DNA of 64,000 nt from Lysobacter sp. yr284 (GTDB lineage: Bacteria > Pseudomonadota > Gammaproteobacteria > Xanthomonadales > Xanthomonadaceae): positions 124,001-188,000 of the forward strand of contig NZ_FNPT01000004.1 of the NCBI RefSeq assembly GCF_900107375.1, written 5' to 3'. How positions within the stretch are numbered: the first letter of the stretch is position 1; each line of letters opens with the position of its first letter. Made by a program: the position numbers and the translations under genes. The notes under the pieces were generated by a model. It worked only from the letters and a program-made list of their open reading frames with translations. It did no database searches and was not told the DNA's origin. This document shows positions 39,668 through 46,245 of this stretch, one piece after another.

Positions 39668-40711
39668 ATGACCGCCGAATTCGACCTGATCGCCGCGATC
39701 CGCGCGCGCGCCGCCGCGCTGGCGGATGTGCGCGGCGATATCGCCCTGGGCATCGGCGACGATGCCGCGCTGTTGTCGCCGCCGGCGGGACGGCAGTTGG
39801 TCGTCGCCACCGATACGCTCAATCGCGGCGTGCATTTCGCCGAGGACGCGGCGGCCGCCGACATCGGCTGGAAGTCGCTGGCGGTCAATCTCTCCGACCT
39901 CGCCGCGATGGGTGCGGAACCGGCGTGGTGCACCTTGTCGCTGTCGCTGCCCGACGGCGATGCGCGCGCCCGCGCCGCCTTCGTCGAGGCCTTCGCCGAC
40001 GGCTTTCTGGAACTGGCCGCGCGCCATCGCGTGGCCCTGGTCGGCGGCGACACCACGCGCGGGCCGCTGTCGGTGTGCGTGACCGCGATGGGGTTCGTCG
40101 AGCCGGGCTGGGCGCTGCGCCGCGATGCGGCCGGCGTCGGCGACGAGATCTGGGTCACCGGCACGCTCGGCGACGCCGGCGCCGCATTGGCGCTGGACGG
40201 GATCGAGGGCTATCGCGATTTTGCCGTGCGCCGCATCGGCGGCACCGATGCGATCACTGACACGGATAACGATGGCGACGCCACCAGCGCGTGGCTGTAC
40301 CGACGCTTGCGCCGGCCGCAGCCGCGCGTCGCCGCCGGTCGCGCGCTGCGCGGCCTGGTGCGTGCGGGCATCGACGTGTCCGACGGCCTGCTCGCCGACC
40401 TGGGCCATGTCTGCGCCGCATCCGGCGTCGGCGCCAATCTCGATGCGGCGGCGTTGCCGGCGTCGCCGGCCTTGCTCGCCGCCTGCGCCGAGGACGCGCG
40501 CCGCGCGTTGCAACTCGGCGGTGGCGACGACTACGAACTGTGCTTCACCGCGCCGGCGCGCCAGCGCGACCCGATCGCGCGCGCGCTGGCCGCCGCGGGC
40601 ACCCCGGCCACGGTGATCGGCCGGATCGAAGCCGAGCCCGGCGTGCGCGTGCGCCTGCCCGACGGCTCGGCATGGACGCCGCCGCGGCGCGGCTACCAGC
40701 ACTTCGACTGA
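39668..40711 (+). CDS. thiL: Thiamine-monophosphate kinase
   Basis: A 347-residue AIRS-fold kinase making thiamine diphosphate. GIGDDAAL, ATDTLNRGVHF, LVGGDTTRGPL, GIDVSDGLLADLGH and LGGGDDYELCFT are all present. An acidic insertion (about residues 189-207, IGGTDAITDTDNDGDATS) is not usual in the family. Starts 111 bases after nusB. Confidence 0.94.
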   Translation: MTAEFDLIAAIRARAAALADVRGDIALGIGDDAALLSPPAGRQLVVATDTLNRGVHFAEDAAAADIGWKSLAVNLSDLAAMGAEPAWCTLSLSLPDGDARARAAFVEAFADGFLELAARHRVALVGGDTTRGPLSVCVTAMGFVEPGWALRRDAAGVGDEIWVTGTLGDAGAALALDGIEGYRDFAVRRIGGTDAITDTDNDGDATSAWLYRRLRRPQPRVAAGRALRGLVRAGIDVSDGLLADLGHVCAASGVGANLDAAALPASPALLAACAEDARRALQLGGGDDYELCFTAPARQRDPIARALAAAGTPATVIGRIEAEPGVRVRLPDGSAWTPPRRGYQHFD

Positions 40712-41053
40712 AGCGGCTGCCCGGTCGAGGCCCCGAGCCGGACTCTTGTGGGAGAGGGCTCTTGTGGGAGGGGCTTGAGCCCCGACGCTCTTGTTCCAGT
40801 TCGTGGCGACCTGAGCGGAAAGCCTCGGGACTGAAGTCCCTCCCACAAAACCCTCGGCAGGAAGTCCATCCTCGAATGTTGGAATCGCGGCCGCGGCCGC
40901 GGCGCACGCCTCCGCGCGCTGCCTTGCCTACTTTGCCGAAACCGATTTCCCGTCGCCGACCCTGCCATCAGTTGGGTCGGCGCGGCGAAAAAGTTCAGAC
41001 CGTTTTCATCGCGCCGATGCAAGCCTGAACGCCTCTCTCCATGGATCGCCCGC
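40712..41053. repeat. Gap with long palindromic repeat copy 4
   Basis: The gap contains copy 4 of the palindromic family. Arms at 40761-40789 (CTTGTGGGAGGGGCTTGAGC and on to CCCGACGCT) and 40820-40849 pair with several mismatches. The centre keeps CCTGAGCGGAAA. Directly before it, CTTGTGGGAGAGGG at 40744-40757 is a partial second left arm, so the element was duplicated or reinserted. The remaining 200 bases before the next gene show nothing firm. Confidence 0.8.
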
Positions 41054-42277
41054 ATGCGCCGGATCGCGCCGACTTCTTCTCGTTCGCGTCGGCGCTCGAT
41101 CGCGCGGGCCTGCATCTGCGCGGCGCTCGCGCTGGCCCTGGGCGGCTGCGGCGCGGTGCGCACCATCGCCGGCATCAACACCGTGCATCTGGAACAGGCG
41201 CGGGTCGATTCGATGCAGATCGACCTCGCCTCCGGCGCCGTCGCGATCTGCCCGCGCGAACGCGTGCAGATGCACGTCGTGGTCGGCGCGCAACTGCCGT
41301 CGCAGGCCGCGCCGCTGCTCTACGAGACCTGGCGCGGCAGCAACGGCACCCGCCGCAACGGCATGCTCGATTTCCGCAATTTCGCGTTCAACAGCGAGCA
41401 GGGCCGGTTCGACGAACTGGGCTGGTTCGCGCCCAATCCGGACGTGCTGGCGACCGTCGACAGCGGCTTCGCGATCGGCGCGAACCTGATCCACCCGAGC
41501 GCGCAGCTCGCCAGGACCGCGCACTATCCGCCCAGCTACGACTGCATCGTCGAGGTCGGCGCGCCCGGCGGCGGCGGCGCCTCGGGCCACGACGGCAGCT
41601 ATGGCGAAGGCGGCGGCGACGGCCACGACGGCGGCCACGGCGGTCGCGGCGGCTATGGCCGCAACGGCGGCGACGGCGAGCCCGGCGGCGGCGGTTACGA
41701 CGGCCCGCACCTGCGCGCTTACGCGACCTACGTCGCCACCGGCCGCTATCCGAAGCTGCTCGCGGTGCGGGTGGAGGGCGACCTGCAGGACCTGGTGCTG
41801 GCGCCGGCCGGGCGCGGGTTCACCGTGGTCGCGCGCGGCGGGCGCGGCGGCGACGGCGGCGATGGCGGCAGCGGCGGCAGCGGCGGCGACGGCGGTCGCG
41901 GCAGCGACGACAAGGACCGCCCGGGCTACGGCGGCGATGGCGGCGACGGCGGCAGCGGCGGTTACGGCGCGCCGGGCGGCCACGGCGGCGACGGCGGCGA
42001 GATCGAGCTGATCTACGACCGGCGTTTTCCGGAACTCGCCCAACTGCTGCGCTTCGATGTCGCCGGCGGGATCGGCGGCGATGGCGGCAGCGCCGGTTCC
42101 AGCGGCAGCGGCGGCGACGGCGGCCGCGGCGGCCTGGGCAAGGGCCGCGACGGCCGCTCGGGCGACTACGGCAGCAGCGGCCCGTCCGGCCCCGGCGGGC
42201 GTGCGGGCATCGCGCAGATGCGGGCGGGCGAGGTCTCGGCGCAGTTCCGCGGCCTGCCGGGAGTGAAGCCGCTGTAG
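41054..42277 (+). CDS. Glycine-triplet (collagen-like) lipoprotein, copy 1
   Basis: A 407-residue lipoprotein: basic start, hydrophobic run, lipobox LGGC with Cys32, then GAVRTIAGINTVHLEQARVD. A beta-rich domain covers about residues 35-165. Three glycine-rich blocks (about 167-215, 259-315 and 339-385) are built from GGD, GGS and GGX triplets, for example RGGDGGDGGSGGSGGDGG, separated by conserved beta-like segments. The triplets resemble collagen or polyglycine-II helices, but Pro is rare, so a collagen triple helix is not certain. The start is the ATG at 41054. A paralogue follows 247 bases later. I do not recognise the family. A surface or outer-membrane role is inferred from the lipobox. 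Confidence 0.85.
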   Translation: MRRIAPTSSRSRRRSIARACICAALALALGGCGAVRTIAGINTVHLEQARVDSMQIDLASGAVAICPRERVQMHVVVGAQLPSQAAPLLYETWRGSNGTRRNGMLDFRNFAFNSEQGRFDELGWFAPNPDVLATVDSGFAIGANLIHPSAQLARTAHYPPSYDCIVEVGAPGGGGASGHDGSYGEGGGDGHDGGHGGRGGYGRNGGDGEPGGGGYDGPHLRAYATYVATGRYPKLLAVRVEGDLQDLVLAPAGRGFTVVARGGRGGDGGDGGSGGSGGDGGRGSDDKDRPGYGGDGGDGGSGGYGAPGGHGGDGGEIELIYDRRFPELAQLLRFDVAGGIGGDGGSAGSSGSGGDGGRGGLGKGRDGRSGDYGSSGPSGPGGRAGIAQMRAGEVSAQFRGLPGVKPL

Positions 42278-42524
42278 CGCCATGGCGGCGCGCGTTGCCG
42301 GCGTGGACGCATCGTCTACGCAGGCTGCCGGCGCGGGTCGGGGCGGCGCGGCCGGTGCGTTCGTCGCGGACACGGCGGCGTTGCGCGCGCATGCGCCGCC
42401 GCTGCACGCACTCGACGCGACGCGCCGTGGTCGCGACATCGAGCGCGGGCTTAAGAGGGTTTTAACCGCGACAATGCGAATCTGCTCGGCGACTGTCGCT
42501 ACCGCGCCCGCCGAGATGGACATC

Positions 42525-43775
42525 ATGCGCAGTGCCGTTCGTTGCTGTTTCGCCGCGTGGTTCGCCGCACCGCGCGCAACCACGCTTTCGCTGGCGCTGG
42601 CCGCGACGCTCGCGCTGAGCGGTTGCGGTGCGGTGCGCACCATCGCCGGGGTCAACACATTGCGCCTGCACGATGCGCGGGTCGATGCGATGGAGGTGGA
42701 GATCGGCAGCGGCGCGCGAGTGATCTGCCCGCGCCAGCCGCTGCAGATGCATGTGGCGGTGTCGGCGCAATGGCCGGGCCAGGCGGCGCCGGCGACGTAC
42801 GACACCTGGCGCGGCGCGCCGGGCATGCGCCGCAACGGCAAGCTGGATTTCGCCGATTTCGCGTTCGCCAGCGAGCAGGGGCGGTTCGACGAGTGGGGCT
42901 GGTTCGAGCCCAACCCCGACATCCTCGCCACGGTGGACAGCGGCTTCACCATCGCCACGCAGTTGCTGCATCCGGTCGCGCAGTTGAGCCAGCGCCAGCA
43001 CTACGACGCGGACTACAGCTGCATCGTCAGCGTCGGTGCGCCGGGCGCGCCCGGCCGCGCCGGCAGCGACGGTTCCGACGGCGCGTCCGGCAGCAGCGGC
43101 GGCAGCGGCCAGCGCGGCAGCGAGGGCGGCTGGGGCGAGAGCGGCGGGCCGGGCGGCAACGGCTACGACGGGCCGCGCCTGCAGGTCTATGCGACCTATG
43201 TGCGCACCCAGCGCCATCCGAAGCTGCTCGCGGTGCGGGTGCGCGGCGACATGAACGATTTCGTGCTGGCACCGGCCGATCGCCCGCTGGCGCTGGTCGC
43301 GCGCGGCGGGCAGGGCGGCCGTGGCGGCGCGGGCGGGGCCGGCGGCGAAGGCGGCAGCGGCGGTAGCGGCGGCAGCGCCAGCGACGACCGCAACGGCGGC
43401 CAGGGCGGCAGCGGCGGCGACGGCGGCGACGGCGGCCAGGGCGGTTCCGGCGGCGACGGCGGCGTCGGCGGCAACGGCGGCGCGATCGAGTTGATCTACG
43501 ACGCGCGCTATCCGGAGCTGGCCGCGCAGTTGTTGCTGGATGTCGACGGCGGCCTGCCGGGCGAGGGCGGCACGGCCGGCTCGTCGGGGCGCGGCGGCTT
43601 CGGCGGTTCCGGCAACGGCGGCTCGGGCGGCAGCGGAAACTCGGGCAATTCCGGCAACTACGGGCGCTACGGTTCGGCCGGGCAGGCCGGCCGCGCGGAC
43701 GCCAGCGCCGGCGAGGTCGCGCGCTACTTCCGCTCCGTTCCCGGAATCGAACTGTTGCCCGGCCGGCAGCGCTGA
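42525..43775 (+). CDS. Glycine-triplet (collagen-like) lipoprotein, copy 2
   Basis: A 416-residue paralogue of the previous gene with the same plan: lipobox LSGC (Cys34), GAVRTIAGVNTLRLHDARVD, then the WGWFEPNPDILATVDSGF block and three glycine-triplet blocks. The blocks differ in composition: the first uses Ser triplets, the second GGDGGDGGQGGSGGDGG, the last GNGGSGGSGNSGNSGNYG. ATG 42525 matches the start of copy 1. ATG 42516 is an alternative. An upstream in-frame stretch from 42282 looks non-coding. TTAAGAGGGTTTTAACCG at 42452-42469, an A+T-rich palindrome-like patch, may hold a separate promoter. Convergent with the next gene, 26 bases apart. Confidence 0.85.
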   Translation: MRSAVRCCFAAWFAAPRATTLSLALAATLALSGCGAVRTIAGVNTLRLHDARVDAMEVEIGSGARVICPRQPLQMHVAVSAQWPGQAAPATYDTWRGAPGMRRNGKLDFADFAFASEQGRFDEWGWFEPNPDILATVDSGFTIATQLLHPVAQLSQRQHYDADYSCIVSVGAPGAPGRAGSDGSDGASGSSGGSGQRGSEGGWGESGGPGGNGYDGPRLQVYATYVRTQRHPKLLAVRVRGDMNDFVLAPADRPLALVARGGQGGRGGAGGAGGEGGSGGSGGSASDDRNGGQGGSGGDGGDGGQGGSGGDGGVGGNGGAIELIYDARYPELAAQLLLDVDGGLPGEGGTAGSSGRGGFGGSGNGGSGGSGNSGNSGNYGRYGSAGQAGRADASAGEVARYFRSVPGIELLPGRQR

Positions 43776-43801: not shown

Positions 43802-45196
43802 TCAGGCGTCGGGCAGCAGCTTGCCCGGATTGAGGATCGCGTCGGGATCGAACACGGTCTTGAGCTGGCGCATCAACGCCAGCGTCTGCGCGCCCACCGC
43901 CTGCGGCATGAAATCGCGCTTGGCCAGGCCGATGCCGTGCTCGCCCGACAAGGTGCCGCCCAGCGCCAGCGCCAGTTCGAACACCCGGCCCATCGCGACG
44001 TGCGCGCGCGCGTTGCGCGCCGCGTCGGCGGGATCGTAGAGCAGGTTGACGTGCAGGTTGCCGTTGCCGGCGTGGCCGAAGCACACGATCGGCAGGTCGA
44101 ACTCGCGCGCCAGCGCCTGCACGCCGTCGACGAGTTCGGGAATGCGCGAGACCGGCACCACCACGTCTTCGTTGATCTTGCCCGGCGCCAGCGTGCGCAG
44201 CGACGGCGACAGCGCCTTGCGCGCGGCCCACAGGGTCTCGCGCGCGGCTTCGTCGACGGCATCGTCGAGCGCCAGCAGGCCCTCGCCGGCGGCGGCGCGC
44301 TTGAGCGCGTCGATGGCGGGGGCCAGGGTGTGGGCGTCGCCGTCGGCTTCGATCATCAGCAGCGCGCCGGCGTCCAGCGGCAGGTCGGCGCCGCCGACGT
44401 CGCGGGCCAGGCGCACGCACTGGCCGTCCATGAATTCCAGCATCGACGGCGTCACCGGCTGCGCCATCAGCCGCGCCACCGCCTGCGCCGCCGAGGAGAC
44501 GTCGCGGTACACCGCGCGCAGCGCCGCGCGCGCCGGCGCCGACGGGGTCAGGCGCAGGCTGGCTTCGACGATCAGCGCCAGCGTGCCTTCGCTGCCGACC
44601 AGCAAACGATGCAGGTCGTAGCCGGTCGAGCCCTTGGTGGTCGCGGTGCCGCAGACGATGAGCTCGCCCGCGCCGGTGACCGCGGTCAGCGCCAGCACGT
44701 TGTCGCGGCTGGCGCCGTACTTCACCGCGCGCGGGCCGCCGGCGTTGCAGGCGAGGTTGCCGCCGACGCTGCTGTAGGCGGCGCTGGTCGGATCGGGCGG
44801 CCAGAACAGGCCGTGCGGCTTGAGCGCGGCCTGCAGGTCGCCGTTGAGCACGCCCGGCTCGACCACCGCGCAGCGGTCGCCGGGGCGGATGTCGACGATC
44901 CGGTTCATGCGTTCGAACGAGACCACCACGCCGCCGGCCACCGGCACCGAGGCGCCGGTGGTGTTGGTGCCGCGGCCGCGCGCGACCAGCGGCACGCGCT
45001 CGCGCCGGCACGCGCGCACCAGCGCCTGCACCTGCTCGCGTGTGCGCGGCAGCGCGACCGCGTCGGGCAGGGCGAGCCGGCGCGAGTTGTCGTAGGCGTA
45101 GGCCAAACGTTCGCCCGGATCGGTCAGCCAGGCGTCGCCGAGCAGTTGCGACAGCTCTGCTTGCAGCGCGGGCGGCAGCGGCGCGCCGGCGTTCAC
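43802..45196 (-). CDS. FAD-binding oxidase (GlcD/D-lactate dehydrogenase type)
   Basis: A 464-residue flavoprotein of the 2-hydroxyacid dehydrogenase group. The PCMH FAD domain shows ARGRGTNTTGASVPVAGGVV, VEPGVLNGDLQAALKPHGLF and SVGGNLACNAGGPRAVKYG. The C-terminal domain shows CFGHAGNGNLHVNLLYD and GTLSGEHGIGLAKRDFM, whose His residues contribute to substrate oxidation. Substrate may be D-lactate, glycolate or D-2-hydroxyglutarate; this cannot be decided. GTG 45196 overlaps the stop of the upstream gene (GTGA). Confidence 0.9.
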   Translation of the reverse strand: MNAGAPLPPALQAELSQLLGDAWLTDPGERLAYAYDNSRRLALPDAVALPRTREQVQALVRACRRERVPLVARGRGTNTTGASVPVAGGVVVSFERMNRIVDIRPGDRCAVVEPGVLNGDLQAALKPHGLFWPPDPTSAAYSSVGGNLACNAGGPRAVKYGASRDNVLALTAVTGAGELIVCGTATTKGSTGYDLHRLLVGSEGTLALIVEASLRLTPSAPARAALRAVYRDVSSAAQAVARLMAQPVTPSMLEFMDGQCVRLARDVGGADLPLDAGALLMIEADGDAHTLAPAIDALKRAAAGEGLLALDDAVDEAARETLWAARKALSPSLRTLAPGKINEDVVVPVSRIPELVDGVQALAREFDLPIVCFGHAGNGNLHVNLLYDPADAARNARAHVAMGRVFELALALGGTLSGEHGIGLAKRDFMPQAVGAQTLALMRQLKTVFDPDAILNPGKLLPDA

Positions 45197-45756
45197 GGCG
45201 CCGGTTCCCGCCGCGGCGCGGCCGCGGCCGGCGCGCGCAGCGACTTGCGCAGCAGCGCGCCGAGGCCGCCGAGCGCGAGCGCCGGCAACACCACCCAGCG
45301 CGCTTCCGACCACAGCACCTCCAGGCCGCGCGCGCTGAAGAAACGCGCGCCGATCGGCGAGACTTCGATCGGCCGCCACGGCGCGAAGATGCGCGCGTCC
45401 GACCACGGCCAGTACAGGGCCACGCCGAGGCCGCCGTCGGTGAGCGCGTCCAGCAACGGATGCGAGGCCGCGCACAGGAACAGCCACCACGCCGCGCGCC
45501 AGCGCGGCGCGCGCAGCCACGGTGCGGCCAGCGCGCCGAGCGCGGCCAGGGCCGCGGCGAAGGCGAAGGAATGGCTGGCGCCGCGATGGCCGAAATCGTC
45601 GGCGTAGGCGATGCCGAGCTTGAACGCGACCACGTCGGCGTCCGGCAGCATCGCCGCGAGCGCGCCGGCGGCGAGCAGGCGCGGGGAAATGCGCTGGCGC
45701 CCGAGCGCCAGCGCCAGGGCCAGCGGGACTACGGCGTGGGTCATCACGGTCGGCAT
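45193..45756 (-). CDS. Membrane-bound metal-dependent hydrolase (YdjM/DUF457 family)
   Basis: A 187-residue inner-membrane protein with about four hydrophobic segments. Family marks: MTHAVVPLALALALG, MLPDADVVAFKLG, HRGASHSFAFAAALA and SHPLLDALTDGGLGVALYWP. The Asp and His residues form the metal site. Function of the family is poorly defined. Start ATG 45756, alternative at 45741. Coupled to the FAD oxidase downstream. Confidence 0.85.
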   Translation of the reverse strand: MPTVMTHAVVPLALALALGRQRISPRLLAAGALAAMLPDADVVAFKLGIAYADDFGHRGASHSFAFAAALAALGALAAPWLRAPRWRAAWWLFLCAASHPLLDALTDGGLGVALYWPWSDARIFAPWRPIEVSPIGARFFSARGLEVLWSEARWVVLPALALGGLGALLRKSLRAPAAAAPRREPAP

Positions 45757-45861
45757 GCGGGCGGGTCCGGGAGCGAGTGTGGGTGCGGCGGGAGAGCGGG
45801 GAATCGCAGGCGGAAGCGGAGCGCGGCGGCGAGCTCGGGCGTCGGCTTCGATCGATGGGCT

Positions 45862-46245
45862 TCAATCGTCGGCGCGGAACGCATCGCGCAGCCAATGCAG
45901 CCGCGGCTGCGCCGGGTCGCCGCCGGCTTCGACCACGTCGAAACGGCAGGCGCGGTCGGCATGGGCGCGATGCCGCTGCAAAAACGCCTGCGCCGCCAGC
46001 ACCAGTTTGCGCCGCTTGCGCGCGTCCACCGAGACCGCGCCGCCGCCGTAGCGGTCGTCGCGGCGGTAGCGCACTTCGACGAAGACCAGGGTGTCGCCGT
46101 CGAGCATCACCAGGTCGAGTTCTCCGACGCGGAAGCCGGCGTTGCTGGCCAGCGCGCGCAGGCCGTGGCCGAGCAGGTGGTCGCGCGCCGCGGCTTCCAC
46201 CGCGGCGCCGCGTTCGCGCGCACCGGGGTCAGCGGCGCGAGGCAT
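45862..46245 (-). CDS. yraN: YraN (UPF0102) endonuclease-like protein
   Basis: A 127-residue protein of the restriction-endonuclease-like fold: [40 protein letters not shown] with the conserved D/E-x-V-E pattern, and [20 protein letters not shown]. It overlaps the end of lpoA by 17 bases. The lpoA-yraN pairing next to divergent rsmI is conserved in many Proteobacteria. Confidence 0.92.

Follow-up and report, generated by a model that had tools for sequence, protein, structure and literature searches.

What might a bacterium do with a pair of lipid-anchored proteins that carry long periodic arrays of glycine? The question is raised by two neighbouring genes in a stretch of 64,000 nucleotides from Lysobacter sp. 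yr284 (contig NZ_FNPT01000004.1; the whole stretch is called the window below). An original prediction, made from the letters alone, had described them as adjacent lipoproteins with a common lipidated start, and this description holds. Copy A lies at 41054..42277 on the plus strand (407 amino acids, delimited by its open frame and by alignments; mature from the Cys at 41147) and copy B at 42525..43775 on the same strand (416 amino acids; mature from the Cys at 42624). Both frames are open. The reading frame of copy B is listed from 42282, but the orthologs seen retain the ATG at 42525 as their start; the upstream methionine at 42516 is a lysine in one relative (G008). A lipobox, read as LGGC in A and LSGC in B, is followed by CGAVRTIAG as the mature N-terminus, and the mature proteins are 61% identical in alignment. 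Read from the sequence (signal peptide, lipobox and Cys), both are predicted bacterial lipoproteins. Under the lipoprotein +2 sorting rule, which turns on Asp, the Gly at this position would place them in the outer membrane.

Predicted architecture and sequence constraint

The structural evidence comes from an AlphaFold2 monomer model of copy A, followed by comparison with solved structures. The model is a confident bundle of packed left-handed glycine helices with strands flanking the glycine blocks (DSSP). The bundle superposes closely on solved antifreeze proteins of the springtail, or snow flea (2pne, 3bog and 7jjv), the nearest fold and by far the best match, at an identity of 44% that is presumably largely glycine. 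Model and comparison thus agree with the polyglycine-II-type packing suggested earlier, and the glycine part is, as modelled, a polyproline-II/polyglycine-II (PPII/PGII) bundle. To our knowledge the springtail proteins have no lipid anchor, no Ig-like stem and no beta linkers.

The glycine periodicity itself is confirmed. The longest in-phase run in the block region is 16 in A and 15 in B, and each exceeds all of 2000 shuffled versions of its own region (mean runs of 5.4 and 4.8, maximum 14 in both). The in-phase GGX/GXX repeats are well above compositional expectation in both copies, and their phase is visible as columns with at least 90% glycine across 24 aligned proteins.

All features of copy A given here are on the plus strand and numbered by mature residue in brackets. 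The N-terminal beta domain, 41147..41560 (1-138), is Ig-like in the model, perhaps a beta-sandwich of the LigA/LigB (BIG-type) kind, and its matches take up most rows of the structure comparison. Its Cys35 and Cys133 are conserved and probably form a disulfide. There follow glycine block 1 at 41561..41704 (139-186), beta linker 1 at 41705..41830 (187-228), block 2 at 41831..41998 (229-284; a loop of variable length sits mid-block, at 250-262), beta linker 2 at 41999..42061 (285-305), block 3 at 42062..42208 (306-354), and a less conserved C-terminal strand and helix at 42209..42274 (355-376). GGX-type triplets had been described for all three blocks; this stands for block 2 only, the prevailing pattern of blocks 1 and 3 being GXX.

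It had also been stated that the blocks diverge between the copies while the linkers stay. This is correct for the two inner linkers (64% and 67% identity, close to the 65% of the N domain) but does not extend to the C-terminal segment, at 45%. At block positions that are not glycine in both copies, identity falls to 28%, 17% and 18%. Across the alignment the glycine positions are nearly invariant and the residues between them variable. The middle of block 2 is among the most variable places of the Lysobacter rows; its loop differs in kind and length across the 17 rows of this genus and is very short in the seven from Myxococcota. The inner linkers appear to frame the bundle structurally; that they are also its functional core, as had been suggested, does not necessarily follow. 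In one metagenome-assembled genome (MAG), linker 2 of the gene at L037:6001-7155 is unlike that of all aligned relatives, as if locally out of frame, for which an error in the sequencing of this MAG may be the cause.

The genes are intact and evolving under constraint. The ratio of nonsynonymous to synonymous change (dN/dS), obtained by a simple counting method in a custom script, is below 1 in every region of all 10 ortholog pairs, with the glycine blocks as the least constrained region in 8 of the pairs, tied in one and the most constrained in one.

As predicted, no known family accounts for these proteins. Nothing in Pfam or NCBIfam passes its cutoff for A or B, PADLOC gives nothing firm, and PHROGs gives weak matches to 7 families on B, most of them tail-fibre or collagen-like and within block 1 (best E 3.2e-4), and none on A. 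A sequence search of the PDB is weak, and a profile search leads to collagen and fibril chains through the glycine blocks. DNA polymerase III theta came up for residues 41-78 of A (NCBIfam E 0.0065, 16.3 of 97 bits; Pfam E 0.049) and was taken as chance because the scores are far under cutoff. Copy A has no plasmid or phage match (tblastn, 1e-5), and none of 91 candidates for the N domain among viral contigs was confirmed. Among open-licence PMC papers we found no prior description of polyglycine II lipoproteins, of glycine-rich lipoproteins or collagen-like proteins of this kind in Lysobacter, or of collagen-like glycine lipoproteins in myxobacteria. Judged against the libraries searched, the family matches nothing characterised and appears to be undescribed.

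Occurrence in Lysobacter and Myxococcota

The architecture is conserved in two distant lineages. A scan of contigs from 84,980 species for the N domain, resting on two short peptide patterns, gave 12 confirmed loci, 4 in Lysobacter and 8, at 38-43% identity, in Myxococcota (Labilithrix, Polyangia and other MAGs). Profile surveys, which score the best candidates of each genome (at most 4 for the full-length profile in Pseudomonadota, at most 14 in Myxococcota and Gammaproteobacteria), matched 12 of 282 sampled Myxococcota genomes, 7 strongly (E 1.4e-47 or better) and 5 no more than weakly. The five diverged forms read (L063, L068, L069, L070 and L073; L071 and L072 were left out) retain a lipobox-like Cys, a CP motif, GG repeats and a further Cys. 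The single match among 274 sampled gammaproteobacterial genomes is the genome of the window. The full-length profile matches 39 of 398 Pseudomonadota, our genome included, and the other 38 matches start at profile position 115 or later, in or near the glycine-rich part. A tree splits the Lysobacter set from the Myxococcota set with support of 100/100. Occurrence in one genus within the gammaproteobacteria suggests transfer from Myxococcota to Lysobacter, the direction being inferred.

Closer relatives were sampled as 60 genomes, our own included, 20 of them of the genus. A family match is found in 14 genomes. All but one belong to the genus, whose 13 carriers have open genes; the pair is therefore no peculiarity of one strain with decayed frames. 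The remaining match (G053) is weak and confined to the glycine part. The protein concerned (L022), from another family of the same order, combines an extended N-terminal part with glycine blocks and beta linkers of the same style. Tandem copies are not the rule, being present in 4 of the 13 carriers (G000, G002, G008 and G014); the second match of G005 is a glycine fragment on a separate contig. By eye, proteins of G002 and G017 look identical to those encoded at a locus of L. enzymogenes (L028) and one of L. antibioticus (L029), which points to Lysobacter as the genus. Copy B groups outside A and the single copies (support 87/91), but a tree joining A and B of a five-species clade, as expected of a duplication private to that clade, is not rejected (approximately unbiased test, p 0.12).

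Upstream of the pair lies a gene that is presumably thiL-like (39668..40711, plus strand); downstream, the open reading frame at 43802..45895 on the minus strand, its true start not fixed, holds what is presumably a glcD-like FAD-oxidase gene. All 13 carriers have the glcD-like gene beside the family gene, and in 12 of them thiL, by coordinates, adjoins the family gene as well. G005 is the only carrier species with about 6.7 kb between thiL and the lipoprotein gene (contig C40; L014, L030). In all 7 non-carriers the gap between the aligned ends of thiL and glcD (99, 99, 144, 235, 274, 363 and 526 bases) is too small for the gene, so the site, whose left edge is thiL, is empty there. A single change on a ThiL tree accounts for the carriers (support 77/81, and found in 81% of the bootstrap trees), and one gain, or one loss viewed from the other side, suffices to explain the distribution in the genus. 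The 20-mer GGGACTGAAGTCCCTCCCAC at 40827-40846 of the window resembles part of a REP-type repeat; it has 66 places in the genome at no more than one mismatch, several of them as inverted pairs about 60 bases apart, against none for the reversed control.

In Myxococcota the family gene has a companion. At all 8 named loci (L032-L039) the next gene overlaps it by 4 bases, ATGA or GTGA. This gene encodes 438-475 amino acids (e.g. L034:7152-8576) with an invariant Arg-Arg near the start and an invariant Cys, and is a Tat-like lipoprotein gene of no known family. An alignment of this partner finds the held-out Myxococcota loci L064, L065 and L066 (hmmsearch), where the partner also follows, for a total of 11 of 12 loci; the 10 kb examined around the gene of L067 (L096) did not contain it. 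No meaningful match was obtained in Pfam or NCBIfam (3 of 8 scanned), in PADLOC (one scanned) or in the PDB (a profile of 8). A search of the 20 genus genomes with the same alignment, made without a positive control in that tool, found the partner in none, which leaves room for a very diverged Lysobacter form. The partner is a new lead, not an explanation.

Known glycine-helix proteins and possible roles

Among four papers cited here on glycine-helix proteins (PMC13243192, PMC6851490, PMC8409303, PMC9608196), glycine-rich helix bundles are described as rare, with few solved structures. As described there, the glycine-rich helices of phage S16 gp38 and Pam3 gp24 are loops growing from a beta framework, and variable loops on these domains are the proposed receptor-binding sites; the gp24 paper draws a comparison with the ALK extracellular domain. 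These are phage or animal proteins, in contrast to the bacterial lipoproteins considered here, and the likeness is by description. Fibre-tip and ALK-type domains hold their glycine helices as loops of a TNF-like or beta-helix frame. In the copy A model strands flank the blocks, and no ALK, gp38 or gp24 chain is among the structure matches listed, most of which belong to the N domain. In mycobacterial PE_PGRS proteins, PPII bundles are predicted from GGX repeats, according to the paper cited; the likeness is again by description and not by sequence, and the helical PE domain is unlike the N-terminal part of the window lipoproteins.

Similar blocks occur in other exported proteins. Loci L041-L049, which from the look of the proteins we take to be from Pseudomonas-like and other proteobacteria, encode glycine-rich proteins sharing a beta-GGX-beta-GXX module. 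Comparing the A3 profile with four of these gives a probability of 95% and E 3.7e-8, to which glycine contributes in part; their N-terminal parts differ from those of the window lipoproteins. Five read in frame (L041, L042, L043, L048 and L049) all have signal-peptide-like starts, with a Cys near the cleavage site only in L042, and the three scanned (L041, L042 and L048) have no Pfam or NCBIfam family above cutoff. Among predicted structures the best match is a giant-virus protein containing DUF7932 (A0A3G4ZNF8; E 2.3e-11, probability 1.00), at a TM-score by query of 0.33 and 22% identity. DUF7932 gives no Pfam match on the window proteins, the presence of its model in the Pfam copy not having been checked, and nothing was found on it in open-licence PMC papers.

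What could such a protein do? By analogy with the proposed receptor sites of gp38 and gp24, we favour binding or display at the envelope over every alternative, with somewhat better than even confidence. Each gene would encode an envelope protein that is lipid-anchored and bipartite, beginning with an Ig-like beta stem, probably tied by the Cys35-Cys133 disulfide. Its second part would be a beta frame with three long loops, packed against one another as one glycine-rich PPII/PGII bundle, and we infer a layering with block 2 in the core and blocks 1 and 3 as outer helices. The nearly invariant glycine lattice would give a stiff scaffold, while the loops and the rapidly changing residues set between its glycines would form the contact surface. 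If so, two copies with different side residues would touch different partners.

The strongest competitor, which we consider unlikely though not to be dismissed, is a purely structural envelope protein. Its bundle would be a stiff spacer or filler with no specific ligand; it would anchor or stabilize the envelope, or serve the partner lipoprotein in Myxococcota. A nearly invariant glycine lattice with freely varying residues around it is what such a protein might show, and the overlap with a second lipoprotein gene fits as well. Acetophenone carboxylase, according to the literature cited, buries such a bundle inside the enzyme. However, a filler needs no variation of the kind seen in the middle of block 2, which includes length, and both copies are kept in 4 species.

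Since the snow flea protein is by far the best fold match, an ice-binding or desiccation protein has to be considered. Yet a common fold proves no function, and the literature cited describes the springtail proteins as having an ice face that is Ala-rich and poor in charge. Among the 28 residues that follow GG in copy A, 16 are D, R or E and a single one is Ala. Copy B is closer, being Ser-rich and fairly charge-poor at these positions (S 9, Q 3, A 3, D 3, R 1, E 1), but neither copy is Ala-rich; the comparison is one of composition. We regard such a role as improbable.

We give an equally small chance to a collagen-like trimeric fibre. Pfam collagen (PF01391) does appear on B, with E 0.0013 and none on A, but its 18.9 bits are under the gathering cutoff of 27.2. 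The PHROGs matches on B point the same way, and a 14-row profile matches, in the glycine blocks, 8zxl, which is a fibril protein (E 3.1e-20), as well as chains of collagen (from E 1.6e-13), though mostly with no single stretch passing alone, and glycine periodicity by itself yields such matches. The low proline content noted earlier is borne out (5.0% in A and 4.5% in B from residue 139 onward, with 2-3 GP steps in the glycine part), and the modelled monomer folds confidently as a bundle. Least credible of all is the calcium-binding Asp-Gly fold raised in the original prediction, taken in its RTX form: GGD makes up 10 of 28 triplets in copy A, but only 3 of 28 in B, Asp is not kept in Myxococcota, the RTX nonapeptide GGXGXDXUX occurs in neither copy and the Pfam scan has no RTX family.

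A bolder suggestion can be made. Myxococcota and Lysobacter are groups with predatory members. The proteins might belong to an undescribed class of surface receptors or adhesins common to both, probably moved between them, in which a PGII plate on a lipid-anchored Ig-like stem would carry loops that recognize prey or kin as phage fibre tips do; in Myxococcota it would work with the Tat-type lipoprotein of the overlapping gene. We offer this as a speculation that is more likely wrong than right. Whatever the role, a rare type of bundle would here sit on a lipoprotein of bacteria that is conserved in both phyla. Its nearly invariant glycine lattice with variable side positions is a natural experiment on the residues that such a bundle tolerates, and the gene pair of Myxococcota gives a concrete partner to a family that had no annotation.
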